Source of the DNA: Pseudomonas fluorescens
Lineage (GTDB): Bacteria > Pseudomonadota > Gammaproteobacteria > Pseudomonadales > Pseudomonadaceae
Length of the DNA: 64,000 nt
Reading direction: 5' to 3'
Assembly (NCBI RefSeq): GCF_001623525.1
Contig: NZ_CP015225.1
Location: 248,001 to 312,000, forward strand
The position numbers were made by a program, and so were the translations under genes. The first letter of the stretch is position 1. Each line of letters starts with the position of its first letter. A model generated the notes under the pieces. That model worked only from the letters and a program-made list of their open reading frames with translations. It ran no database searches and had not been told where the DNA came from. Below are positions 49,060 to 61,659 of this stretch, piece by piece.

Positions 49060-49500
49060 ATGAGCCAGACTCTCAGCATGTACCAAAGCGTTGGCCCGTC
49101 CGCCTTCAGCAATATGGCCTGCCAGATGGCACCGTACTTCGGCACCATCAACCCGGAAATTTCGGTGTTGGCCCCCGGCCGCAGTGAGGTGAAGGTGCCG
49201 TTCCGCAAGGAAATCACCAATCACCTGGCGTCCGTTCACGCGATCGCGTTGTGTAACGCGGCAGAACTGGCGGGCGGCATGATGACCGAGGTGTCCATCC
49301 CTGGCGGGGCTCGTTGGATTCCCAAAGGCATGACTGTCGAATACCTGGCCAAGGCCAAGACGTCCATCCACGCGATTGCCGACGGCAGCGACATCGACTG
49401 GCAGACTTCGGGTGACAAGATTGTTCCGGTCGAAATCTTCGATGAGGCAGGGGTGAAGGTCTTTACGGCGCGCATCACCATGAATGTGAAAGTCGGCTAG
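49060..49500 (+). CDS. Hot-dog fold protein, DUF4442/PaaI-like thioesterase
   Basis: This 146-residue protein follows the single hot-dog plan: an N-terminal helix, FRKEITNHLASVHAIALCNA (long central helix beginning at N-H), AGGMMTEVSIP, WIPKGMTVEYLAKAK and final strands VKVFTARITMNVKVG. The pattern matches DUF4442 proteins thought to hydrolyse acyl-CoA thioesters. It is divergent from the TetR gene and shares its operator, suggesting induction by an aromatic or fatty acyl signal. Substrate unknown. Confidence 0.88.
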   Translation: MSQTLSMYQSVGPSAFSNMACQMAPYFGTINPEISVLAPGRSEVKVPFRKEITNHLASVHAIALCNAAELAGGMMTEVSIPGGARWIPKGMTVEYLAKAKTSIHAIADGSDIDWQTSGDKIVPVEIFDEAGVKVFTARITMNVKVG

Positions 49501-49639
49501 GTCGCCTGGCCCATCAAGCGTCGACCGTCTCCGCCATCAGTCGCTGGCGCAAGCGGTTGACGCTCGAGGCAAGGCTAAAGATCAAGGACCAGGTCAGAGG
49601 TGGGCTTGCTGCAGCACAGCAAACGCAGGCCTTTGTCGA

Positions 49640-50422
49640 TGGTCGGATACGGAAATCGCTGTAAAGCTGGCGGATACGGCATTGCGCGACCACTTGACGC
49701 AACCGGTCAAGTTGGTGCTCGCCGATATTGGTATCCAGTTCCAGGCCTTGGCCAACGGCAATATCGACCTGATCCCGATGGTCTGGCTGCCGAGCACCCA
49801 CAAGGCGTTCTATGACAAATACCAGGACAAGCTCGAAGACCTCGGCGTGCTGTATGAAGGTCGGATCGGCATGGCGGTGCCAACGTCCATTCCCACCAGC
49901 GAGATCGCCAGTGTCGAGGATCTGAATAAACCAGAAGTGCGGGAGAAACTCGGCGGCAAGATCCTGACTTCGGAAGTGGGCAATGGCCAATACAAGCTCA
50001 CGGAAAAGGCCATCCAGGAATATAAGCTCGATGGTTACAAGATGGTCGCTTCTTCAGAGTCCGGGATGTTGAGCGAGCTGGATCGAAACCTCAAACGTGA
50101 CAAATGGTCGTTGATCAACGCTTGGAGCCCACACTGGATGTTTGCCAAGTGGCCGCTGCGCTACCTGGATGATCCGAAGCAGATTTTCGGTGGTGCCGAG
50201 CAAATCCATGCGGTTGCTCGCAAAGGTTTCAGCGCCGAGCATCCTGATGTCGCCCGGTTCTTCGCCAACTTCAAGATCCCCAAGGCTGATCTTGAGAAGT
50301 TGATGTCGACCGCCCGTGACAGTTCGGCAGACAAAGTCGTTGCCGAGTACTACGCCGCCAACAAGCCTCGCTTCGAGGCCATGTTTGGCAGTCAGACCGC
50401 CTCGGCGACCGGCAGCCAGTAA
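49640..50422 (+). pseudogene. Truncated glycine-betaine-type ABC substrate-binding protein
   Basis: From WSDTEIAVKLADTALRDHL on, the frame encodes the OpuAC/ProX fold: VLADIGIQFQALANGNIDLI, PMVWLPSTHKAFYDKYQDKL, a second-lobe SESGMLSELDRNLKRDKW with the AWSPHWMFAKWPLRYL Trp-rich ligand region, and an intact C-terminus. No ATG, signal peptide or ribosome site lies upstream in frame to 49500; only a TTG at 49682 could start it, which would give a leaderless partial protein. It is read here as a gene that lost its promoter and leader. Ligands of such proteins are glycine betaine, choline, carnitine or DMSP. Confidence 0.8.
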
Positions 50423-50608
50423 TCGCCGCGGTTTTCCGATAGGTGTTTGCAGTTCGGTGCCCTTGACGCAAAGTGAAGAGCGTCGGCTGTCATCGATTCC
50501 GTTCGGGCTACCCTTGGAACATGCTGGGACCCCCTTCCGGTGCCGCTGAGGTACGTTGAGCAGCCTGTCATTTTTTCTGCGTCTGACTCAGGAATGGGAT
50601 TGAACACG

Positions 50609-51253
50609 ATGATTACCCGTCGCGAGCCTTTGTCGTTGGATCCGGCTGTCACCCGCAGCGCGCAGTGGCTTCGGCGATCGCTGCATGAAATCCTCTCGAA
50701 CCACCTGGGGGACGGTACATCCGAGGCGACACAAGCACATGCCGCCGCCCTGGGCGCGGCCGAGTGGACCCTCAAGAAACCGCCGGCAACGCCCCGCGCG
50801 TTACCGGCAGTCCTGGCGCCCTATTTGGCCCAGGCATTCGACGCTGCACCGAATGCCCCCGAGCACCTGTCAGGGGTGTTGGAGGCGTTGAGCGCACTGG
50901 TGCCCCATGTTCCCTGGATCAATCGTCAGGCCCAGGCCGGCCAGGACGATCGGTTCGTGGAGCGGCATCGCCATGGGATGGTCACCGGTCCAGGGGGATT
51001 GTTCGACTGTCCCGGCATGACCCTGGGGTTGGCCCTCATGGCGCCTGAAACCTGTTATCCGTTCCACCAGCATCCTCCGGCTGAGTTCTATCTGGTGTTG
51101 TCCCCAGGCGATTGGTATCGCGAGGACGTAGGCTGGTGGACGCCCGGGGCAGGGGGCATTGTCATAAACCCACCGTCTTGCACCCATGCGATGAGATCAA
51201 CGCAAGCGCCACTCCTGGCGCTGTGGGGGTTGCTCCATGAGCCCTGCGCTTGA
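50609..51253 (+). CDS. Cupin-fold dimethylsulfoniopropionate lyase family protein (DddQ/DddL-like)
   Basis: ATG 50609 has GGGA nine bases upstream (214 residues); ATG 50594 is an alternative. The C-terminal cupin holds Y150, H153, H155, E159 and Y161 in CYPFHQHPPAEFYLVL, then H193 in PPSCTHAMRS. The spacing Y-x2-H-x-H-x3-E-x-Y, with a last His 32 residues on, equals the metal and catalytic set I recall for DddQ (Y120, H123, H125, E129, Y131, H163). The enzyme would split DMSP into dimethyl sulfide and acrylate. An N-terminal helical half fits the family. It lies just after a betaine-type binding-protein remnant; activity on other betaine-like substrates is possible. Confidence 0.8.
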   Translation: MITRREPLSLDPAVTRSAQWLRRSLHEILSNHLGDGTSEATQAHAAALGAAEWTLKKPPATPRALPAVLAPYLAQAFDAAPNAPEHLSGVLEALSALVPHVPWINRQAQAGQDDRFVERHRHGMVTGPGGLFDCPGMTLGLALMAPETCYPFHQHPPAEFYLVLSPGDWYREDVGWWTPGAGGIVINPPSCTHAMRSTQAPLLALWGLLHEPCA

Positions 51254-51338
51254 GGTGAAGGGTTCGAAGACTACCGTCGCGCCGCTCGTCATGGTGCGTT
51301 ACTGGGTATTCCTGGCATCACGTTTTCTGACTTGCCTG

Positions 51339-51415
51339 GACCAGACCCCATGGACTGTTGTGGGGCGTGCATGGTGATTGCCGGTGGCCTGTATGCGATC
51401 AAGGCGAAAGGCTAA
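51339..51415 (+). pseudogene. C-terminal remnant of a DMT/EamA-type transporter, frameshifted
   Basis: Reading DQTPWTVVG in one frame and, after a one-base shift near 51362, GACMVIAGGLYAIKAKG-stop in the next gives the last helix of an EamA-family permease. The rest of the gene is missing. It is a decayed fragment about 85 bp after the DMSP-lyase stop. Confidence 0.5.
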
Positions 51416-51517
51416 GTGACTTGTTTAATCTTATGCCATGTAGGAATAAGCATGATTAAATATATTCCTTGTCCGTATTAGTCACCGTGCTAGATTGTTC
51501 CCACCGGACAGCCGGAT

Positions 51518-51757
51518 ATGTTCAACCTAATCGATGGTACGACTATGTCCGGTGTCCGAATCTTTCCAATCAGCCTCGAGGCTTTGTCCTATGACCAAGT
51601 CTGTGGAGCGATTTCTCATTCCGGCAATACCCACATCAGTCCTGAAACCTTCATTGCCGTTCCATTCGTGACCGGCAAACCGCTTCCTTGCCAGGCCAAC
51701 AGCGAAGCCTGCAGTGCAATCAGCGAAGGCTTGGCGTTTCTGCTCTACGCCATGTGA
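51518..51757 (+). CDS. Hypothetical protein, 79 residues
   Basis: An ORF from ATG 51518 (alternative ATG 51545) encodes a small protein, SGVRIFPISLEALSYDQVCG through SEGLAFLLYAM, with three cysteines and no membrane segment. No family is recognised and neither start has a clear ribosome site. It lies between decayed fragments and the desaturase operon, so it may itself be a remnant or an orphan. The stretches 51416-51517 and 51758-51886 show no gene. Confidence 0.35.
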   Translation: MFNLIDGTTMSGVRIFPISLEALSYDQVCGAISHSGNTHISPETFIAVPFVTGKPLPCQANSEACSAISEGLAFLLYAM

Positions 51758-51886
51758 CGCAGCGCTGTCGGCATTTCCATACCGTAACGTCAGTCAGTCA
51801 TCTCCAGGTAATACCCGTCCCGGGTGGTCGCTTGAAGTGTGAGTGAGTGGGCGTCTGTTCAGCGCAGCCTATCGCGACTTACCACC

Positions 51887-52831
51887 ATGCCAAATTATTT
51901 GGATGAAGCTCATCGAGCCGAAATCGTTAAGCTCGGCAGAACCTTGACCAGCCGGACTGAATGGCCCACCTGGCTTTTACTGGTCGGCTTTTATCTGGCC
52001 TGGGCTTTTATTGTTTTTCATGGGCAGGCACTTGGCCAACTCATCAGCATTGTCCTGTTGGTTCCACTGGTCGTGCTCTGGATGTCGATTCAGCATGAAC
52101 TGATCCACGGTCATCCCACCCGATGGCCCATGATGAACAAAGCCTTGGGATTCCTGCCGTTTGCCGTGTGGTATCCCTACGATATCTATCGGGACACGCA
52201 TCTGGCCCATCACAACGATGAAGTGCTGACTGTGCCTGGACAAGATCCAGAAAGTCGCTACGTCACCCGCATGTCCTGGGTGCAATCACCCCGTTATATG
52301 AAGGCCTTGTTGTGGGTGAACAAGACCTTGGGCGGGCGCCTGATCATCGGCGCGCCGTTGGCATTGATGACCCTTGCAAGTACCGCGCTCGGAGGGTTGT
52401 TGCATTCGGAACGAAGCAATTGGCGGATGTGGCTCATTCATCTCCTGAGCGTTGGGGTGTTGCTGGGATTGGTTGAACAGTACAGCGCCATCAGCGCACT
52501 CCAATACCTCTTGCTTGTGGCACTTCCAGCATTGTCCATTTCAATGGTCAGGTCGTTTTACGAGCATCGACCGTCAACGCTGCCAGAACACCGTACGGTG
52601 ATCAATGAATCCTCAGGGATTTTGAGTTGGCTCTTTCTTAACCTCAATCTTCACTTGGTTCATCACGATCTTCCCGGTTTGCCCTGGTTTTATTTGCCCC
52701 GGGTGTATAGAGCCAGGCGTGAACAATGGATCGCGCGAAACAATGGCTATGTCATTCATGGCTACTTCCAGTTATTGCAGAGGCATCTGATCAATCCCGT
52801 GGATTGTCCTCGCCATCCTGCCAGGCACTAA
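51887..52831 (+). CDS. Membrane di-iron fatty acid desaturase/hydroxylase family protein (MocD-like)
   Basis: The chosen ATG 51887 gives 314 residues; a GTG at 51839 is possible. The three histidine boxes of membrane desaturases are intact: H70-ELIHGH (70-76), THLAHHNDE (H105, H108, H109) and LHLVHHDLPG near 254-260. Four membrane segments flank them. Such enzymes use a di-iron site and O2 to desaturate or hydroxylate; relatives also act on small molecules in catabolic operons (MocD of rhizopine use). Only 30 bp separate it from the OpuC-type ATPase, so it is probably part of the importer operon and may hydroxylate the imported compound. That role is inference. Confidence 0.85.
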   Translation: MPNYLDEAHRAEIVKLGRTLTSRTEWPTWLLLVGFYLAWAFIVFHGQALGQLISIVLLVPLVVLWMSIQHELIHGHPTRWPMMNKALGFLPFAVWYPYDIYRDTHLAHHNDEVLTVPGQDPESRYVTRMSWVQSPRYMKALLWVNKTLGGRLIIGAPLALMTLASTALGGLLHSERSNWRMWLIHLLSVGVLLGLVEQYSAISALQYLLLVALPALSISMVRSFYEHRPSTLPEHRTVINESSGILSWLFLNLNLHLVHHDLPGLPWFYLPRVYRARREQWIARNNGYVIHGYFQLLQRHLINPVDCPRHPARH

Positions 52832-52861
52832 AAATACTCAAGCTAATCTGGGCGTCGGAAA

Positions 52862-53893
52862 ATGATACGTTTTGAAGCCATCAAGAAAACTCATAAAGGC
52901 AGCCCGCGAATGGCCGTGAGCGATTTAACGCTTCATGTCCGGGAGGGGGAGATCTGCGTATTTGTCGGGCCAAGTGGGTGTGGCAAAACGACCATTTTGC
53001 GAATGATCAATAGACTGGACACCCAGGACAGTGGCCGCATCAGTGTCAATGGAGTGGCGACCGATGAGCTTGACGTCGTGACGCTTCGCCGTGGCATCGG
53101 TTTCATGATGCAAAGCTCAGCCTTATTTCCTCATCAAACTGTTGCAGAAAATATTGGCGCGGTTCCGCGGCTCTTGGGTTGGAGCAAGCATAAGATCCGC
53201 CAGCGCGTGAGCGAGCTCATTTCCCTGGTCGGGCTTCAGCCGGAATTTCTGGACAGGTACCCTAATCAACTGTCGGGCGGGCAGCAAAGTCGTGTTGCCT
53301 TGGCGAGGGCATTGGCCTCGGACCCACCGGTTGTATTGATGGACGAACCCTTTGCCGCGCTTGATCCGGTGATCCGCGAGCGACTGCAGGACGAACTGGT
53401 TGCGCTGCAGAGGCGTTTGCATAAAACCATTATCCTGGTGACCCATGACATGGAAGAGGCCATCAAGATTGGTGACCGGATCGCCATCTTCGAGGGCGAA
53501 GGAAAGCTTGCTCAGTTCGATACACCTCACAATATCCTTGCCCATCCTGCCAGCGAGTTTGTGAAGAACTTCATCGGCAAGGATCCGCTGTTGAAAAGAC
53601 TGTCGCTGATGAAGGTTTCTGATCTTCCTGTGGATGAAGTTAATTGCGAATTCAAACTTCTGCTGGACGATAAGTCCAATCCGCTGAAGTGGGTCAGTGA
53701 ATCCGACTTGCCTGTCCCTGAACTTACCACGGTGTCGAATAATGATTCGTTGCATCATGCACTGGTTAAAATTCTAACGGCTCCGCTCGGTGTGGTTGTT
53801 CGAGTGGACGAGGCGGGTGGTTACGAAGGTTGCCTGTCGATTGCCAGCTTTCACAGCGCACTCAATGAGCGCCGCTTTGGAAGTGCGCAATGA
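52862..53893 (+). CDS. Quaternary-amine ABC importer ATPase (OpuCA/ProV-like)
   Basis: The 343-residue ATPase has Walker A GPSGCGKTT near 38-46, the LSGGQQSRVALARAL signature, Walker B VVLMDEPFAALDPV and H-loop THDMEEA. A C-terminal part in the position of the CBS pair (about 255-340) follows, as in osmoprotectant importers. It powers import of glycine betaine, choline, carnitine or related compounds. The stop overlaps the permease by 4 bp. Start ATG 52862 has only a weak site, and coupling to the desaturase is by proximity. Confidence 0.92.
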   Translation: MIRFEAIKKTHKGSPRMAVSDLTLHVREGEICVFVGPSGCGKTTILRMINRLDTQDSGRISVNGVATDELDVVTLRRGIGFMMQSSALFPHQTVAENIGAVPRLLGWSKHKIRQRVSELISLVGLQPEFLDRYPNQLSGGQQSRVALARALASDPPVVLMDEPFAALDPVIRERLQDELVALQRRLHKTIILVTHDMEEAIKIGDRIAIFEGEGKLAQFDTPHNILAHPASEFVKNFIGKDPLLKRLSLMKVSDLPVDEVNCEFKLLLDDKSNPLKWVSESDLPVPELTTVSNNDSLHHALVKILTAPLGVVVRVDEAGGYEGCLSIASFHSALNERRFGSAQ

Positions 53894-54519
53894 TTGACTG
53901 GTCCTGGATCGTTGAAAACTGGCAGCAGATAGGCCAGCTGTTATTTGATCATATTCAGCTGGTGACCTTCGGCCTGTTTATAGGAATGTTGTTAGCGGGC
54001 GCAATGGTGCTCTTGACGTTATGGAAGCCAGGGTTGGCGCAGCCCATGATTTATATCAGCGGAATACTTTTTACCATTCCCTCCCTGGCACTGTTCATTT
54101 TGATAATGCCCTTTACCGGTTTGTCCAAGACGACGGCGGTGATTGGTTTGAGCCTGTATGCCTTGCTGATTGTGTTACAGAACACTCTGGCGGGCCTTGC
54201 GAGCAACCCCCCGGACGTGCTGGAAGAAGCCCGTGCGCTAGGGTACACGCGCATGCAGAGATTCCTGGGAGTTGAACTTCCCCTGGCGTTGCCTTCGTTA
54301 TTGGCAGGGCTGCGAACGACCGCAGTGACATTGGTAGGGCTGGTGACGGTTACTGCGTTAATTGGTCAAGGCGGATTGGGGCAGCTGTTCATTACCGGGT
54401 TGGCTCAAAGTTTCACTACGCCTGTGGCGGTCAGTTTGGTTCTTACGGTGATGTTGGCGTTATGTTTTGATTTTCTGTTTTATTCAATCAATAAATGGCT
54501 GGTCCCTTGGGTGCGCTAA
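53890..54519 (+). CDS. OpuC-type ABC importer permease 1
   Basis: The 209-residue protein has five to six helices and the BPD transport loop EEARALGYTRMQRFLGVELPLALPSLLAGLR that docks on the ATPase. It follows the ATPase with an ATGA overlap and runs into the second permease through a TAATG overlap, as in opuCB/opuCD arrangements. The short length is normal for OpuC-type half permeases. Third-position A/T content looks higher here than in neighbouring regions. Confidence 0.92.
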   Translation: MIDWSWIVENWQQIGQLLFDHIQLVTFGLFIGMLLAGAMVLLTLWKPGLAQPMIYISGILFTIPSLALFILIMPFTGLSKTTAVIGLSLYALLIVLQNTLAGLASNPPDVLEEARALGYTRMQRFLGVELPLALPSLLAGLRTTAVTLVGLVTVTALIGQGGLGQLFITGLAQSFTTPVAVSLVLTVMLALCFDFLFYSINKWLVPWVR

Positions 54520-55202
54520 TGAATAGGATCGCAGATGTCTACCTCTGGTTTTCTCTTCCTGAACACTGGTTGGGCGAAGACGGAATACTGACTCGGCTGG
54601 CAGAGCATATTTATTATGTGTCTTTGAGCCTGGCTATTGCTTGTGCGATAGCGTTGCCGCTCGGCGTACTCATGGCTAACTACCGCAAAGGCGCGCAGGT
54701 GGCGATCGGGCTGTTCAATATTGGGCGAGCATTGCCTTCCCTGGGTATTGTGATACTTGCAATCATGCTCATTGGCTATGAAACCAGCACGGTGATTATC
54801 GCCTTGGTCACCATGAGCATCCCGCCGATATTGACCAATACCTATGTTGGCATCGATCAGGTGGATTCGTCTCTGAAGCATGCTGCCAAATCGATGGGGA
54901 TGCGCAGATGGCAGATGTTTATCCAGCTGGAATTACCGTTGGCTTTTCCACTGATCTTTTCTGGATTCCGATCAGCCCTGGTGCAACTTATTGCCACGGC
55001 CACCATTGCCGCCTATGCAGGGTTCGGCGGGCTGGGCAGGTTTCTCATTGACGGGCTGGGTCGAAATGACATCCCTCAAATCATTGGCGGCGCACTGGTG
55101 GTGTCGGCACTTGCGATTGTCAGCGAGTGGGTTTGTTCAATGATCGAAACACTCATGGTTCGAAAATGGCGAGCGGGGGATGTTGAACTGAGCGCTACAT
55201 GA
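54519..55202 (+). CDS. OpuC-type ABC importer permease 2
   Basis: ATG 54519 overlaps the previous stop by one base (TAATG) and gives 227 residues; the frame from 54495 adds eight residues out of context. Helices flank the docking loop LKHAAKSMGMRRWQMFIQLELPLAFPLIFSGFR. The pair of unlike permeases forms the heteromeric channel of the importer. Fifty bases separate it from the binding-protein start. Confidence 0.92.
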   Translation: MNRIADVYLWFSLPEHWLGEDGILTRLAEHIYYVSLSLAIACAIALPLGVLMANYRKGAQVAIGLFNIGRALPSLGIVILAIMLIGYETSTVIIALVTMSIPPILTNTYVGIDQVDSSLKHAAKSMGMRRWQMFIQLELPLAFPLIFSGFRSALVQLIATATIAAYAGFGGLGRFLIDGLGRNDIPQIIGGALVVSALAIVSEWVCSMIETLMVRKWRAGDVELSAT

Positions 55203-55251
55203 TCAGGGGCATTTGAAAGTGCGTATTAATTCTGCAGAGGTGCAAATCCAA

Positions 55252-56157
55252 ATGAAAAACAAACAACGTTCGAAGGCTCGTTCAGCGCACTCGGTTTCAT
55301 TGTTGCTGGGGTTAGGCTTGCTGGTGGGCAGCGCATTTGCCAGTGCCCAGTCCATCACCATAGGCGGGGCCAATTTTTCCGAGCAGACGATTCTCGCGAA
55401 CATCTATGCGTCAGCTTTGAAAAAGGAAGGGATTGAGGTCAAGACCCGGCTCAATCTGGGGAACCGCCAGATCATCGCCAAGGCGCTGGAAAACGGGGAT
55501 ATCGACGTTGTACCCGAGTACATAGGATCACTGTTGAGTTTCTATGACGACAAGAGCGCCCTGACCAGCCAAAAGGAGATCGTCAGCGCCTTGCAACAGA
55601 AGTTGCCAGCGGGCCTCCAGTTGCTTGAGCCTTCGGCCGCGGGCTCTATTACCGCTTGGGCCGTCACCAGGAAAACCGCAGAAAAGTACAACTTGCACAG
55701 CTTGTCCGACCTGGCGCCTGTCTCAGGCGATCTCACGCTGGGCGGGCCTCCCGAAGTCACCACTGCTGCATTAGGCCTGCCCGGGTTGAAGGCGGTCTAC
55801 GGCATCAACTTCAAGAGCGTCAAATCGCTGGACATGGGCGGGCCCTTGTCGCGGCTGGCGCTGAACTCAGGCGCTATCGACGTCGCCACGGTGGTCTCCA
55901 CGCAAGGCATCCTGGCGAAAGAACCTTGGGTAGTGCTCGAGGACGACAAGCATCAACAGCCCCTGCAAAACATTACGCCACTGGGACGCAAGGCGTTGCT
56001 AACCCCAGAAGTCACCAAAGTGCTCAACGAGGTCTCTGCAAAACTGACCGATGACGACCTCAAGCAACTCAATCGCCTGGTTGATATCGATCACAAGGAT
56101 CCCGCAAAAGTCGCGGCGCAGTGGGTCGCTGAAAATACCGTCAAGGCGGCCAACTGA
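55252..56157 (+). CDS. OpuC-type substrate-binding protein for quaternary ammonium or sulfonium compounds
   Basis: ATG 55252 follows AGGTG nine bases upstream (301 residues); GTG or other starts near 55213 are less likely. A basic N-terminus and hydrophobic core (SVSLLLGLGLLVGSAFA-SA) form a signal peptide. The mature start ITIGGANFSEQTILANIYAS and LENGDIDVVPEYIGSLLSFY are diagnostic of the OpuBC/OpuCC/OsmX family. It binds the ligand in the periplasm and delivers it to the two permeases. Unlike the truncated protein at 49640 it is intact, so this importer should be functional. Confidence 0.92.
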   Translation: MKNKQRSKARSAHSVSLLLGLGLLVGSAFASAQSITIGGANFSEQTILANIYASALKKEGIEVKTRLNLGNRQIIAKALENGDIDVVPEYIGSLLSFYDDKSALTSQKEIVSALQQKLPAGLQLLEPSAAGSITAWAVTRKTAEKYNLHSLSDLAPVSGDLTLGGPPEVTTAALGLPGLKAVYGINFKSVKSLDMGGPLSRLALNSGAIDVATVVSTQGILAKEPWVVLEDDKHQQPLQNITPLGRKALLTPEVTKVLNEVSAKLTDDDLKQLNRLVDIDHKDPAKVAAQWVAENTVKAAN

Positions 56158-56193
56158 ACATGAATGCGATGTGGGTAAGGTCGCGGAGGCGTT

Positions 56194-57522
56194 ATGTCCA
56201 ATAAAAGCATGATTTTGAATTTGTTCTTTTTTAATCCCCAAGGGGATCATCGTTTTTCTTGGCGCCACCCGCTGTCACCGACCAAGGAAATATTGACGCT
56301 GGGGTACTACGTAAAACTGGTGCAGGCGGCCGAGGCGGCGAAGTTCGATGCGGTGTTTGTCGCGGACCACGTCGCGGTCTGGGACTCCGTCGCCAGTGGG
56401 TTGAGGCACTATGCCAACGCCCGCCTTGAACCGATTACGCTCTTGTCCGCATTGGCGGCTGTCACCGAACACATCGGGCTGATGGGCACCGCTTCAACGT
56501 CCTATAACGAGCCCTTCAACCTCGCGCGATATTTTGCTTCGCTGGACTACCTCAGCACAGGGCGAGCCAGCTGGAATATCGTGACGTCCTGGTTGGAAGA
56601 AGAGGCTTCGAATTTCGGATTGTCAGGCGTGACGAAGCACGGCGATCGTTATCGGCGGGCCGAGGAGTTCATTCATGTCGTCAAGCAGCTTTGGGACTCC
56701 TGGGAGGAGGGGGCCCTTGAGTTTGACAAGGACAGCGGCGATTTTGCCGACCCGTCCAAGATTCACCCGATCCATCACGAAGGAGCTCATTTCAACGTGC
56801 GTGGGCCGCTGAACGTGCCGCGTCCACCGCAAGGACATCCGGTCCTTGCCCAGGCGGGGTCTTCTGAAGCGGGCAAGGATCTGGCCGCCGCCCATGCGGA
56901 CGTGCATTTCTGTTTCATCAATACGGTCGAGGAGGGACTGGCGTATAGGGCCGATTTGAATCGCCGACTCGAGTTGAAGGGGCGGCATTCCAGTGATCTG
57001 AAAATCATTACCGGTGTGCTTCCGGTGGTTCTGGAGGATGAGACTGAGGAGGAGCGACGTCGGCAACTGGAGGACAGCCTCATTATCGATGCCGTGGCGA
57101 TTGATCTGGTCTCCAGCTACACCCGTCTTGATCTGACAGGCCTGTCGCCGGACAGCCCGCTACCCGCCTTGCCGGATGAGTCTGAGTTCGATGGCATTCG
57201 AACCGAGCTGGCCTTGCTCAAGAAATACGACACCTCGTTGTCCATCCGCGAGATAGGGCGCCGGTTGGTCAAGAGTTCCAGTACCTGGCTGCTGATCGGA
57301 ACGGCGGAGCATATTGCCGAGAAGCTTTCAGCGTTGTACGAGTCGAATGCCGTCGATGGCTACAACCTCATGTTTCCGTTTTTGCCCACGGACTTCGAAA
57401 CATTTACCCGTGGCGTGGTGCCTTTGCTGCAAGCCAGAGGGGTGTTCCGCCAGGAATATGAACCCGGGACCCTGAGGGATCGCTTGGGTTTGAAGATGCC
57501 TGCCAACCGCTTCCTGCTGTGA
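56194..57522 (+). CDS. LLM-class flavin-dependent monooxygenase (NtaA/SnaA/DszA family)
   Basis: GGAGGC precedes ATG 56194 (442 residues). The TIM-barrel monooxygenase pattern is clear: YYVKLVQAAEAAKFDAVFVAD, LEPITLLSALAAVTEHIGLM, DYLSTGRASWNIVTSW, and HPVLAQAGSSEAGKDLAAAH. This subgroup, with reduced flavin from a partner reductase, oxidises nitrilotriacetate, EDTA, dibenzothiophene sulfone and dimethyl sulfide. In this context it could oxidise the imported compound or a DMS-like product; that is inference. No flavin reductase gene is seen nearby. It lies 36 bp after the binding-protein gene. Confidence 0.9.
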   Translation: MSNKSMILNLFFFNPQGDHRFSWRHPLSPTKEILTLGYYVKLVQAAEAAKFDAVFVADHVAVWDSVASGLRHYANARLEPITLLSALAAVTEHIGLMGTASTSYNEPFNLARYFASLDYLSTGRASWNIVTSWLEEEASNFGLSGVTKHGDRYRRAEEFIHVVKQLWDSWEEGALEFDKDSGDFADPSKIHPIHHEGAHFNVRGPLNVPRPPQGHPVLAQAGSSEAGKDLAAAHADVHFCFINTVEEGLAYRADLNRRLELKGRHSSDLKIITGVLPVVLEDETEEERRRQLEDSLIIDAVAIDLVSSYTRLDLTGLSPDSPLPALPDESEFDGIRTELALLKKYDTSLSIREIGRRLVKSSSTWLLIGTAEHIAEKLSALYESNAVDGYNLMFPFLPTDFETFTRGVVPLLQARGVFRQEYEPGTLRDRLGLKMPANRFLL

Positions 57523-57559
57523 TCAGCGTCAATCACAATCCTCTGAATGGATTTTTCAT

Positions 57560-58342
57560 ATGACCAGCGATCTATCCATGTACCTCGCTCCCGCCAGGGT
57601 TTTACAGGCCCAGGACGCCTGGCTCCAGCGCATCCTGGAGATTCTGGGGGAGCGCCGTGAGCAAAAGCAGATCGTTGATCCCGTGTCCCATTGGCTTTCC
57701 CCCGATCTGTTGTTATCCCAGACCTGCGGCTATCCATTGGTCACGTCATTGCGGGGAAAGGTGAGGCTGATTGGGCGTCCGAGCTATGAGCTCGCTCATG
57801 GCTCGGGGGGTGAGCATTGCAGTTTGCTGCTGTGTAGAGCTGATTCGCCCGTGACTGATCTGGCGGATTTGCAGGGCAGCCATGGACTGATCAACGCCCG
57901 GGATTCCAACTCTGGAATGAATTTATTGCGTCACACGTTGGCTGGGATCAGCGACCGCGGTTTTTTCTCGAAACTCACCTTTACCGGATCCCACAGGGAG
58001 AGCATGCGCAGACTGAAAAAGGGCGAGGGCGATTTGGCTTCCATCGACAGTGTCACCTACGACTATCTGGCGAGAGACCACAGTGACGAGATCGAAGGCC
58101 TCAGGATCCTGGCGCGAAGTGTGCGCAGTCCCTGCCTGCCCTACATAACGTCGATTCGTAGAACGGCGACGCAAGCGGACTCTATCAGGCGCGCAATGAA
58201 CGAAGCCCTGAGCCAGCTTCCTGAGATTTCCCGTGACCTGGCGATCAGGGAAGTCCTGCCGGCCAGTGAGGCTGACTATGAGTGTCTTCTGGAGTATGAG
58301 CGCAGTGCGGCCAATCGCGGTTTTTCGTTTGTATCATCCTGA
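57560..58342 (+). CDS. Leaderless PhnD/periplasmic-binding-protein-like protein
   Basis: The 260-residue protein resembles PhnD-type binding folds (QTCGYPLVTSLRGKVRLIGRP, LQGSHGLINARDSNSGMNLL, GDLASIDSVTYDYLARDH). It has no signal peptide or lipobox, so it should be cytoplasmic. Such proteins can sense or sequester a ligand instead of serving transport; no partner permease is adjacent. It is 37 bp after the monooxygenase in the same direction and ends the operon. Its start lacks a strong ribosome site. Confidence 0.8.
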   Translation: MTSDLSMYLAPARVLQAQDAWLQRILEILGERREQKQIVDPVSHWLSPDLLLSQTCGYPLVTSLRGKVRLIGRPSYELAHGSGGEHCSLLLCRADSPVTDLADLQGSHGLINARDSNSGMNLLRHTLAGISDRGFFSKLTFTGSHRESMRRLKKGEGDLASIDSVTYDYLARDHSDEIEGLRILARSVRSPCLPYITSIRRTATQADSIRRAMNEALSQLPEISRDLAIREVLPASEADYECLLEYERSAANRGFSFVSS

Positions 58343-58344
58343 GC

Positions 58345-58366
58345 GGCGAGCCGTCCCTGGCTCGCC
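58345..58366. terminator. Hairpin between convergent operon end and chemoreceptor gene
   Basis: An 8-bp perfect GC-rich stem (GGCGAGCC / GGCTCGCC) with a six-base loop begins three bases after the 58342 stop and ends 13 bases before the chemoreceptor stop. No T-tract follows on either strand, so termination efficiency is uncertain. Confidence 0.45.
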
Positions 58367-58378
58367 ACCTCAAACAGG

Positions 58379-60322
58379 CTAGAACCTGAAGCGCCCAACC
58401 AAGCCCTTGAGCTGCCCGGAAATATCCGTCAGACGCCCCGAGCCGGTCTGCGCCGAGTGGGCGAATTCCTCGACCAACTGGGCATCGGCATGGATCTGCG
58501 CGATGTGCCGGTTGATGTCTTCGGCCACCTGGTGCTGTTCCTCTGCCGCCGTGGCGATCTGCGTATTCTGGTCGCGAATCGAGTCCACCGAGTTGCGGAT
58601 CTTGTCGAAACTGTCGCGGGCCTGTTGGATGCGTTCCACGCTGGTTTGCGACACCTGCAGGCTGCTTTGCATCTGCTGGGTGACTTCCTGGGTGCGACGA
58701 GCAAGGTTACCCAGCAGGCTGTCGATCTCGCCGGTGGAATCGGCGGTACGCCTTGCCAGCGCCCGGACTTCGTCAGCCACTACGGCGAACCCGCGACCTT
58801 GATCGCCGGCCCGCGCGGCTTCGATGGCGGCGTTGAGGGCCAACAGGTTGGTCTGTTCGGCGATCGAGCGAATGGTGTCGAGGATGGTGTTGATGTTCTT
58901 GCTGTCTTGTTCCAGCGCCTGCATGGTCTGGGTCGACTTTTGCAGGTCGTCGCTCAGTTTCATCACGCTGCCGGTGGCTTCGCCGATGTGATGCTGGCCG
59001 TCGTGCACGTCACGATAGCCTTCGTCCGCACTGGAGGCGGCCTGGCTGCAAGAGCGGGCCACTTCGTTGGCGGTGGCGACCATTTCGTTGAACGCGGTGC
59101 TCACCAGTTCCACGGCCTGGCGCTGGCGCCCGGCAGCGTCGTTCATGTTCTGGGCCACGTGGCTGGTATCGGCTGCGGCGGTTTGCAGGTCGGAAGAGGC
59201 GCTGCCGATGCGCTGCATCAGTTGCGCGATCATGCCCAGGAACTGGTTGAACCAGCCCGCCAGGGTGGCCGTTTCGTCCTTGCCTTGTACGGTGAGCTTG
59301 CGGGTGAGGTCGCCTTCACCTTCGGCGATTTCCTGCAGGCCATTGGCAACACCGCGAATCGGCCGCACGATGACGCTGGCGAAACTGGCGCCCACCAAAG
59401 CGAACACCACGGCCAGTACGGCGGCAATGGCGGCGATCAGCCAAGTCAGGCTCGAAGCCTCGGCCATCACTTCATCGCGCTTGATCAGGCCGATGAAGCG
59501 CCAGCCCAACCCTTTGGAGCTGACCACGTTGGCCATGTAGGGCACGCCGTCGATTTCGATCTGGGTCACGCCATCGCTGCTTTTGGCCAGCTCGGCATAG
59601 TTGGGCCCAAGGTCGGCCAACGGCTTGAAGTTGTGCTTGGCATCGGCAGGGTCCACCAGGACGTTGCCGTTGGCTTCCACCAGCATCAGGTAGCCGCTTT
59701 CACCCAGCTTGATGTTCTTGACCAGTTCGGTGAGCTGCTTGAGCGACACGTCCAGGCCGACCACGCCGATAGGTTTGCCACTGGCGTCGGCGACGGTGTG
59801 TACGGTGCCAATCAGCGATACGTCGTCCGGCGCCCAATAATAGGCGTCCGTGCGTACGTTGGTGCCCGGTGCGGCCATCGCGGCCTTGTACCATGGACGT
59901 ACGCGCGGGTCGTAGTTGGCCATTTTGGGATCGTCCGGCCAACTGGCATAGCCGCCGTCCTCCATGCCCACGGAAAGGTAGGCGGTGGTGGGGTGGCTCT
60001 TGGCGAATCTCTCGAAGATATCCAGAAGCTGCTGGTTGATCTCGGGGAATGGCTGTTGTGCGGCGTCGGCACCGGCGTAGCTTTTCAGCCCTTTGGCCGC
60101 GATGACCCGGGGGTCCTTGGCGAAGAATTCGACGTTCTGGCTGATGCCATCGAAAAACTGCTTCATGCCGTTGTCGATCTGGCGAATCTCACGACCACTG
60201 CTGTCCAGGAAGTTGGCTTTTGCGGCGTCGCGCAGGTTCAGCACGACAAGCACCGCCACCAGGATAACTGGAAGGCAGGCGATGGCCGCGAACGCCCATG
60301 TCAGCTTCTGTTTGATATTCAT
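58379..60322 (-). CDS. Methyl-accepting chemotaxis protein with dCache sensor
   Basis: A 647-residue receptor has a membrane helix at 7-30, a periplasmic dCache_1-type domain (about 35-280, including [22 protein letters not shown] and [20 protein letters not shown]), a second helix near 290-315 and HAMP. The signalling tip follows with [39 protein letters not shown]. The dCache motif Y-x(n)-D-V-S resembles receptors for amino acids or quaternary amines. No tethering pentapeptide is visible at the C-terminus. Given its place beside a betaine-type importer, its ligand may be the same compound. Confidence 0.93.
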
Positions 60323-60615
60323 GACTTCTCCCGCGGAATATTTTAAGTGTTGGAGCGGCGGAAACAGCAGTGGTTGGCGTTGCGAGTCTCTGGAAGGGAA
60401 AAGCGCCCATGCCTACTGACAGTGTATCGACCAAAGTCGTAGGCACTTGAGGCTTTCCATTATGGCGCGGACCGACCGGTAGACGGCGCAGGCGCGATTG
60501 CAGCCGGCTTGACTAGTCTGGAAGATAGCGTGGTTTGCTCTGCGCCTTCGCCCTGCGGCTCAAGGCCCCCACGTGCAGCCAATCATCATCGTCTTTGATG
60601 TATTAACGAGGCCCT

Positions 60616-61659
60616 ATGCCAAGCGCATTCGAGAGCGTACTCAAAAACAAGAACATGGCTTATCGACCGCTCGGATCAGCGCCCGCCAGCCAGGTGCCGA
60701 TCCGCGTCGCGTTTGTATTGATGGATAATTTCTCGATGATGTCCTTCACCGGTGCGGTGGACGCGCTGGTGACCGCCAATCTGATGAGCGACATGCCCCT
60801 CTATGAAGTGCTGACGGTGGGGGTTTCAGGTGGGCAAGTCACGAGCGACCTGGGCATTGTCATCTCGACCGACATCGAACTGGCGCAGATGCCGGAAAAC
60901 CAGGACGTGCTGATTGTCGCCGGGGGCTTTCGCGTGAAGTTGCAAGGCCATCCCTTGCTGCGGCGCAAGCTGCGTGCCAACGCGGCGTCTGGGACGATAC
61001 TGGGAGGACTGTGGAACGGCGTCTTCTTTGTGGCCGATGCCAATCTGCTGGACGGTTTCGAATGCGCTGTCCACCCGGAAAGCCGCGCCATGATGGCGGA
61101 GGTGTTTCCCCATGTGAAGGTGTCCAGCCGGGCCTATGTCGTTGATCGGGAGCGGGTCAGTTGCGCGGGGGCCAACAGTTCGCTGCGCATGATGCTCCAA
61201 TTGATTCGCCAGACGGGCGGGGCGGCGCTCGTGGGCGCTATCGAGGAAATTCTTCGTTGTGACGAGTCTGGCGATGATGCGACGGACTTGCCTCCGGTCT
61301 TCGTCGAAACCGACCCGACGTTGCCGGAAAGCCTCAAGCTGGCCCTGGAACTGATGTGGCAAAACGTAGAAGAGCCGTTGACCATCGATGAGCTGGCGGC
61401 GTGCGTCAAGATTTCCAAGCGGCAGTTGGAGCGGCGGTTCTGCAGTTTTCTCGGTGCGACGCCCACACGCTATTACCTGGAACTGCGCTTGACGCGTGCC
61501 CGCCAGCTCATCCAGCAAACCAATCGATCCGTGACCGAAATCGCCGTGGCGACGGGCTTCGTCAGCTCCCCGCACTTCCAGCGTCGTTTCCGGGATTTTT
61601 TTGGTGTGCCGCCTGGTAGCTATCGCTCGAAATCGGAGCGCAAACAAACCGTGCGATGA
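60616..61659 (+). CDS. GATase1-like AraC-family regulator (GbdR/CdhR type)
   Basis: The 347-residue protein has an N-terminal DJ-1/PfpI-like domain (about 28-205: VAFVLMDNFSMMSFTGAVDA, DVLIVAGGFRVKL) that senses ligand without catalysis. The C-terminal AraC double helix-turn-helix contains MTIDELAACVKISKRQLERR-like and VTEIAVATGFVSSPHFQRRF segments. Proteins of this architecture in Pseudomonas (GbdR, CdhR, SouR) activate glycine betaine, carnitine and sarcosine genes. It is divergent from the chemoreceptor across 293 bp with no other gene and is the likely activator of the 51.9-58.3 kb operon. Confidence 0.9.
   Translation: MPSAFESVLKNKNMAYRPLGSAPASQVPIRVAFVLMDNFSMMSFTGAVDALVTANLMSDMPLYEVLTVGVSGGQVTSDLGIVISTDIELAQMPENQDVLIVAGGFRVKLQGHPLLRRKLRANAASGTILGGLWNGVFFVADANLLDGFECAVHPESRAMMAEVFPHVKVSSRAYVVDRERVSCAGANSSLRMMLQLIRQTGGAALVGAIEEILRCDESGDDATDLPPVFVETDPTLPESLKLALELMWQNVEEPLTIDELAACVKISKRQLERRFCSFLGATPTRYYLELRLTRARQLIQQTNRSVTEIAVATGFVSSPHFQRRFRDFFGVPPGSYRSKSERKQTVR

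Follow-up and report, generated by a model that had tools for sequence, protein, structure and literature searches.

A transferable seven-gene module of importer, membrane di-iron oxygenase and flavin monooxygenase in Pseudomonas fluorescens, a candidate system for scavenging a small sulfur or nitrogen compound

What kind of compound would be handled by a cluster in which an OpuC-type importer stands beside a membrane oxygenase, a flavin-dependent monooxygenase and a binding protein that lacks a leader? The question is raised by a 64,000-nucleotide stretch of a 6.9 Mb genome (positions 248001-312000; nearest protein relatives in Pseudomonas), which is the whole of the DNA analysed here and is referred to as the window. 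The unit in question spans 51545-58342 of the window and comprises a small open reading frame, DESAT (a putative membrane di-iron oxygenase), an ATP-binding cassette (ABC) importer made of an ATPase, two permeases and a binding protein, LLM (a luciferase-like monooxygenase dependent on flavin mononucleotide, FMN) and PHND (a leaderless PhnD-family protein). We propose, at a probability of about 0.5, that this module scavenges a small organic sulfur or nitrogen compound via uptake and two-step oxidation. Its genes are as follows.

51545..51757, forward strand: small open reading frame of 70 codons, intact in the window and in each of the 10 related loci from Pseudomonas, its differences enriched at third codon positions
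51887..52831, forward strand: DESAT, putative membrane di-iron oxygenase of the FA_desaturase superfamily (PF00487; invariant histidines)
52862..53893, forward strand: importer ATPase of OpuC/ProV type, below the curated cut-off of all 25 named families listed of 191
53890..54519, forward strand: importer permease 1 (PF00528)
54495..55202, forward strand: importer permease 2 (PF00528)
55252..56157, forward strand: importer binding protein of the OpuAC family (family match), with one of the four EgtU-type cage aromatics by residue comparison with EgtUC
56194..57522, forward strand: LLM, NtaA/DmoA-family FMN-dependent monooxygenase (TIGR03860 above cut-off; nearest solved relatives YtnJ/MoxC)
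57560..58342, forward strand: PHND, PhnD-family protein (PF12974) without a leader and with an AioX-like pocket

Every gene that the initial annotation of this stretch had named lies where it had been placed, and the operon-like spacing it described for 51887-58342 is borne out by a single closely spaced run, with gaps of 30, -4, -25, 49, 36 and 37 bases in gene order. The small open reading frame, 129 bases upstream of DESAT, was added to the unit through comparison: pairwise differences among the window and the 10 related loci number 420, 408 and 698 at codon positions 1, 2 and 3, respectively. Its codons 3-70 have no match in Pfam.

The run recurs well beyond this genome as a set of seven genes (DESAT, ATPase, two permeases, binding protein, LLM and PHND), and close relatives, in which DESAT is 78-83% identical, keep exactly this order. 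The complete set is present in eight distinct Pseudomonas genomes (the window, L009, L010, L012, L013, L014, L028 and L058), on three plasmids (L152 from Klebsiella, L154 from Erwinia and L157, an Agrobacterium pTi) and in a gammaproteobacterium with a Klebsiella-like layout (L114). On the Klebsiella and Erwinia plasmids, DESAT-PHND faces LLM, binding protein, two permeases and ATPase; on the pTi plasmid all seven genes run in the same direction. Relative to the window, LLM of the three plasmids is 54-64% identical and the binding protein 39-64%. A neighborhood comparison asking whether the desaturase and the monooxygenase come apart from the importer elsewhere thus finds them linked, with the full set in Pseudomonas, Enterobacterales and Rhizobiaceae, and the linked unit of uptake and two oxygenases proposed by the initial annotation stands. 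The seven-gene block is a transferable module, apparently travelling between unrelated species.

The set also occurs in part. PHND is missing from L011, DESAT is a remnant in L047, both defects occur in L048, and L062 holds DESAT, importer and PHND without LLM. A DESAT search with one genome per species gave 40 loci, in which a profile search finds DESAT in 39, PHND in 29 and both in 28; some absences may represent contig ends, since some loci (for example L020 and L038) are short contigs. In L039, L043 and L045, an LLM relative of 35-37% identity lies within the same locus. PHND relatives appear in 135 plasmid records with one query and 133 with another; the 10 plasmid stretches that we selected for examination contain PHND (10), DESAT (9), an LLM relative (5) and the full set (3). 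Locus counts by set are not independent, because the sets share genomes (L009=L057, L014=L059, L048=L169, L026=L079, L021=L081, L027=L092), and the genus set of 40 was selected to include outliers. The genes termed FecI, FecR and ALDH, like most neighbors in many comparison loci, were recognised by eye.

Both oxygenases score above their family cut-offs. DESAT reaches 106.1 bits against a PF00487 cut-off of 29.7, and its conserved histidine boxes (H70, H74, H76, H105, H108, H109, H227, H256, H259 and H260, invariant among 29 aligned sequences) further predict a membrane di-iron oxygenase; a sequence comparison with the PDB gives no match for it at E<=1. LLM scores 487.2 bits against the curated NtaA/DmoA cut-off of 279.7, and its best solved relatives are YtnJ/MoxC.

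The common part of the module in Pseudomonas is DESAT-PHND, and the importer and the extra enzymes vary. When 249 Pseudomonas genomes were searched with each protein, DESAT was found in 97 and PHND in 99, with both in 96, DESAT alone in 1, PHND alone in 3 and neither in 149 (Fisher p about 2e-64, ignoring kinship). Start-to-start distances within the 96 paired genomes are under 2 kb in 86 and 4-6 kb in 5, and in the remaining 5 the partners lie elsewhere in the genome. This count used full-length-type rows, including a split DESAT frame in G236 and a PHND in G039 that covers part of the query; it excluded weaker matches, at about 36% identity or lower, as well as short fragments with higher identity (G006, G083:C18, G231 and the second G236 piece), and some weak PHND rows are unlisted. 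Automatic annotation calls DESAT a "fatty acid desaturase" and PHND a "PhnD/SsuA/transferrin family substrate-binding protein", and among the papers listed from the one open-access library searched, judged by title and the start of the abstract, none concerns the pair. The words "desaturase" and "phosphonate" are absent from the main text of a study on betaine demethylation (PMC12478193), and "desaturase" is absent from PMC5908839. DESAT could be an ordinary lipid desaturase with unrelated neighbors, as its Pfam name and that automatic annotation would have it. However, the near-perfect co-occurrence and adjacency with PHND in Pseudomonas, together with the recurrent linkage of DESAT to importer and LLM in other orders, make this very unlikely.

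PHND scores within PF12974, and its model is predicted to adopt a type II binding-protein fold like that of AioX/ArrX, as indicated by a second look with VIA-align at the Foldseek matches. Aligned to the AioX pocket (Y88, C106, Y131, S161, S163, H192 and D210), PHND matches five of the seven residues, namely C106, S161, S163, H192 and D210, of which C106 is the arsenite-binding cysteine in AioX; Y131 is replaced by histidine (tyrosine in some relatives), and Y88 has no clear alignment. There is no room for a leader, because the tyrosine at residue 8 is invariant, and no sensor kinase is seen among the typed neighbors, so that PHND has neither the periplasmic export nor the adjoining kinase of an AioX-type sensor. 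The matched pocket would fit a module that handles an organoarsenical, with the PHND cysteine binding a trivalent arsenic product, but an AioX-like pocket need not bind arsenic, and no arsenic gene was recognised among the neighbors read, which were not systematically typed; we regard this explanation as highly improbable. PHND may instead be an enzyme, because it combines a leaderless binding-protein fold with Cys, His and Asp in the cleft. On a tentative and rather doubtful extension of this idea, DESAT and PHND would constitute a novel oxygenase system of two proteins that several scavenging pathways have adopted, among them a Pseudomonas ergothioneine pathway and the version in the window. 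In such a system PHND would possibly be an enzyme rather than a transporter part and may hold or process the DESAT product in the cytosol.

The importer has the gene set expected for quaternary ammonium uptake (an OpuAC-family binding protein, an ATPase and two permeases), and the best solved relatives of its binding protein include an acetylcholine sensor, a nicotine sensor and EgtUC. According to the EgtU study, the trimethylammonium cage of EgtUC is formed by F293, Y341, Y419 and Y443, the carboxylate is contacted by K242, T296 and R379 and the imidazole by E375 and T275, and within EgtU the residue G244 never varies (PMC9732360). At the cage positions the window protein has Y, T, V and Q, one aromatic of four, and thus lacks the aromatic cage of a quaternary ammonium importer; K242, T296 and R379 are replaced by A, S and A, the imidazole contacts read E and R, and G244 is F. 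The same four cage residues are found in L009, L013, L014, L058, L114, Klebsiella and Erwinia, with D for T in L062 and Y, N, F, Q (two aromatic positions) in Agrobacterium, such that the binding proteins of nine module relatives have one or two cage aromatics each. Because one of four cage aromatics is kept, the quaternary ammonium or sulfonium ligand proposed by the initial annotation is unindicated for the window.

By contrast, binding proteins designated SBPb, from six DESAT loci, carry Y, W, Y, Y in the cage, aromatic at all four positions in every case, and SBPx proteins beside DESAT-PHND relatives fill 10 tryptophan columns in 34 of 34, presumably a ChoX/ProX-type cage. We also take HutXWV to belong to the OpuAC family. 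It takes part in histidine uptake, as PMC8871633 describes. By this analogy, OpuA-like importers can serve other ligands. A profile built from seven window-type binding proteins (threshold E<=1e-45) matches 7 of 398 genomes of the phylum: the own genome and G522, each with the full module; G083, where the protein lies beside LLM with a DESAT remnant; G497 (L141) and G550 (L168), where it adjoins PHND; and G294 and G594 (L166 and L167). The profile also reaches betaine-type relatives, as three cage positions are aromatic in the L141 protein and all four in that of L168. The L166 and L167 importers, with cage residues Y, D, F, Q, lie beside aldehyde-dehydrogenase-like, PALP-family and OCD-family genes, which points to yet another ligand.

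For the window, LLM together with an importer largely stripped of its cage suggests a compact sulfur or nitrogen compound, and the following sequence of events can be envisaged. The importer would bring in a compact ligand, probably not a quaternary ammonium ion, which DESAT would hydroxylate or S-/N-oxidise in the inner membrane. Cytosolic PHND may then bind the oxidised product via Cys56, Ser116/118, His145 and Asp163 and either hand it on or process it. Finally, LLM, supplied with reduced FMN by a general flavin reductase, would cleave a C-S or C-N bond to yield sulfite or an amine, as SsuD and NtaA do.

The genes on either side of the unit are a separate matter.

49060-49500: DUF4442 (family match)
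49493-50422: OpuAC binding-protein frame, truncated, directly after DUF4442
50540-51253: cupin of the DMSP_lyase family (PF16867), intact, outside the conserved module
58379..60322, reverse strand: dCache chemoreceptor (dCache_1 and MCPsignal), a neighbor whose membership in the unit is unsupported
60616..61659, forward strand: GATase1-AraC regulator of GbdR/CdhR-like architecture (DJ-1_PfpI and HTH_18), a neighbor

The cupin is a predicted member of the DMSP-lyase family, with 119.7 bits against a cut-off of 27. The OpuAC frame has no start or leader, because no ATG, GTG or TTG precedes position 49682, and looks like a 5'-truncated remnant. The protein of 60616-61659 joins a GATase1-like domain to an AraC helix-turn-helix, as in GbdR/CdhR. 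The cupin, the truncated binding protein, DUF4442 and the GATase1-AraC gene have no match in the 40 one-per-species DESAT loci (filter E<=1e-8, 30% coverage), and chemoreceptor matches there reach 29-32% only. Among the loci compared, chemoreceptor and GATase1-AraC gene adjoin the module in L058 alone, whose upstream genes belong to other clusters, and in L014 a different chemoreceptor follows PHND. All five are best treated as neighbors rather than members. Of the wider island drawn by the initial annotation, the linked uptake and oxygenase unit remains, and the chemoreceptor and regulator do recur beside it in L058; the upstream genes, unmatched in the 40 loci, and the quaternary ammonium or sulfonium ligand find no support.

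The window has no Rfam match, and all seven hits from the four sources searched are tRNA or rRNA genes in L019 and L062. Promoter-like and terminator-like sites are at chance level (2 versus 4.5 and 8 versus 7.8). A box upstream of the small open reading frame, ATAAGCAT...ATTCCTTG, is kept in relatives; it was considered as a sulfur-starvation promoter and rejected, with a single occurrence in the own genome at <=3 mismatches and no regulon to compare.

The alternative view, in which the island takes up and degrades a betaine or sulfonium compound and the cupin, the chemoreceptor and the GATase1-AraC regulator all participate, would accord with the OpuAC-family binding protein and its solved relatives, and with the quaternary ammonium-type binding proteins SBPx and SBPb that adjoin DESAT-PHND relatives. 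Betaine-homocysteine methyltransferase in L134 and carnitine-type genes in L031 likewise favor it. We nevertheless consider it unlikely, given Y, T, V and Q at the EgtU cage positions and the absence of upstream matches in the one-per-species loci.

Several observations weigh against the scavenging proposal. No sulfur-regulation site is confirmed at the module. DESAT-PHND of L134 stands with the methyltransferase, which exceeds its cut-off, and with MttB-like and DddP-like proteins, which fall short of theirs, and that of L031 with BKACE, 3-hydroxyacyl dehydrogenase and thioesterase, which we take to be a carnitine gene set; these betaine-demethylation and carnitine-type neighbors fit a betaine role better. 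The cage of the window protein may be rearranged, since the E375 imidazole contact is retained and there is a tryptophan two residues beyond the position of Y341. The parts of the module can also stand apart, as L047 and L048 retain importer and LLM alongside only a remnant of DESAT, and PHND is missing from L048 and L011. At E<=1e-25 and with 250 or more residues aligned, an LLM relative is present in 12 of the 40 one-per-species DESAT loci, and the window-type importers of G294 and G594 come without DESAT or PHND. Across the phylum, where a PHND profile at E<=1e-15 matches 74 of 398 genomes, the first 20 loci from the better matches comprise 13 with DESAT and 7 without, and many of the further 20 of these 40 loci, left uncounted, hold PHND without DESAT. 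Hence, the pairing is near-obligatory in Pseudomonas and not everywhere.

A different substrate is suggested by the company that DESAT and PHND keep in other genomes. One full Pseudomonas form (L105) consists of DESAT, PHND, FecI, FecR, a TonB receptor, SBPx, an SsuA-like protein, an OCD-family protein and a lyase that lacks the MIO (4-methylideneimidazol-5-one) tripeptide and has ergothionase (6s7j) as its best PDB match. This ergothionase-like lyase is found at E<=1e-90 in 15 of the 249 Pseudomonas genomes, in every case on the same contig as DESAT and 9,310-9,991 bases away, start to start. In both L141 and L168, a MIO-less lyase occurs together with an importer of OpuC type, a protein of the OCD family and a distantly related PHND. 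The L168 cluster has hutG and hutI as neighbors, each scoring above its cut-off, and its binding protein keeps K242, T275, T296, N339, Y341, E375, R379, Y419 and Y443 of EgtUC, nearly all contacts but G244. DESAT-PHND could thus belong to an aerobic ergothioneine or hercynine pathway, of which the variant in the window would take up a tail-less product, for example thiourocanate or another imidazole acid. But no MIO-less lyase is found in the own genome, window included, at E<=1e-90: its three lyase matches lie outside the window at loci with an intact ASG motif, two of them overlapping. Moreover, the window protein has A in place of K242 and F in place of G244 of EgtU, no DESAT appears among the genes listed for L141 and L168, and the Pseudomonas lyases read QRT where ergothionase reads QKT. 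The residue comparison strengthened the ergothioneine case for L168 and not for the window, for which we hold this pathway to be possible but improbable.

On two Rhizobium plasmids (L151 and L160), genes with an SfnB-family annotation lie in one stretch with PHND and DESAT; in L160, SfnB scores 563 bits against a cut-off of 431 and an NtaA-type LLM 538 against 280. This sulfur context speaks for the scavenging proposal, as do YtnJ/MoxC as best solved relatives of the LLM in the window. A gene annotated hutH beside PHND and DESAT in L156 is also without the ASG motif; this form may represent an ordinary histidine lyase, as a GYLTH-type lyase also occurs inside the L168 hut cluster. Since sulfur, amino-acid-betaine and one-carbon gene sets all occur with DESAT-PHND, no single substrate follows.

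Some further arrangements were observed along the way. L168, with its lyase, EgtU-like binding protein, OCD-family protein, PHND, permeases and ATPase beside hut genes, is itself a candidate ergothioneine or hercynine cluster. In L015, L017 and L063, an extracytoplasmic function (ECF)-sigma-like gene ends with a 4-base overlap between its stop and the start of the gene for a periplasmic binding protein of betaine type, and in other genomes FecR-like and TonB-receptor genes lie between the two. PHND relatives in L128, L144, L145 and L150 sit beside an amino-acid-type ABC importer with no DESAT seen, and glutamine-synthetase-like genes are near them in L144, L145 (a family match) and L150. A distant PHND group (L137, L138, L140 and L148), by eye near genes resembling those of sensor kinases and molybdoenzymes, does not enter the argument.

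In soil and plant-associated bacteria, the widespread DESAT-PHND pair probably carries out an oxidation of small nutrients that has yet to be described. Should the ergothioneine link hold, it would provide an aerobic route for the breakdown of a compound whose lyase has reportedly been established in few microorganisms (PMC13405746).

Among known systems, ergothioneine breakdown shares the ergothionase-like lyase with those 15 Pseudomonas genomes and differs from the window and its genome, in which none was found. The AioX/ArxX/ArrX sensors resemble PHND in fold, but PHND is leaderless, has no kinase among its typed neighbors and is linked to DESAT. EgtU/OpuC importers have the family and the gene set of ATPase, permeases and binding protein in common with the window, which departs from EgtU in its cage and in the replacement of K242 and G244. 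Ssu/Sfn/Nta-type modules likewise combine a dedicated ABC importer with an adjacent luciferase-like monooxygenase that depends on FMN and would set free sulfite or an amine. In contrast to these, the run 51545-58342 has no flavin reductase gene, its importer is of OpuC type, and DESAT and PHND stand as added partners.

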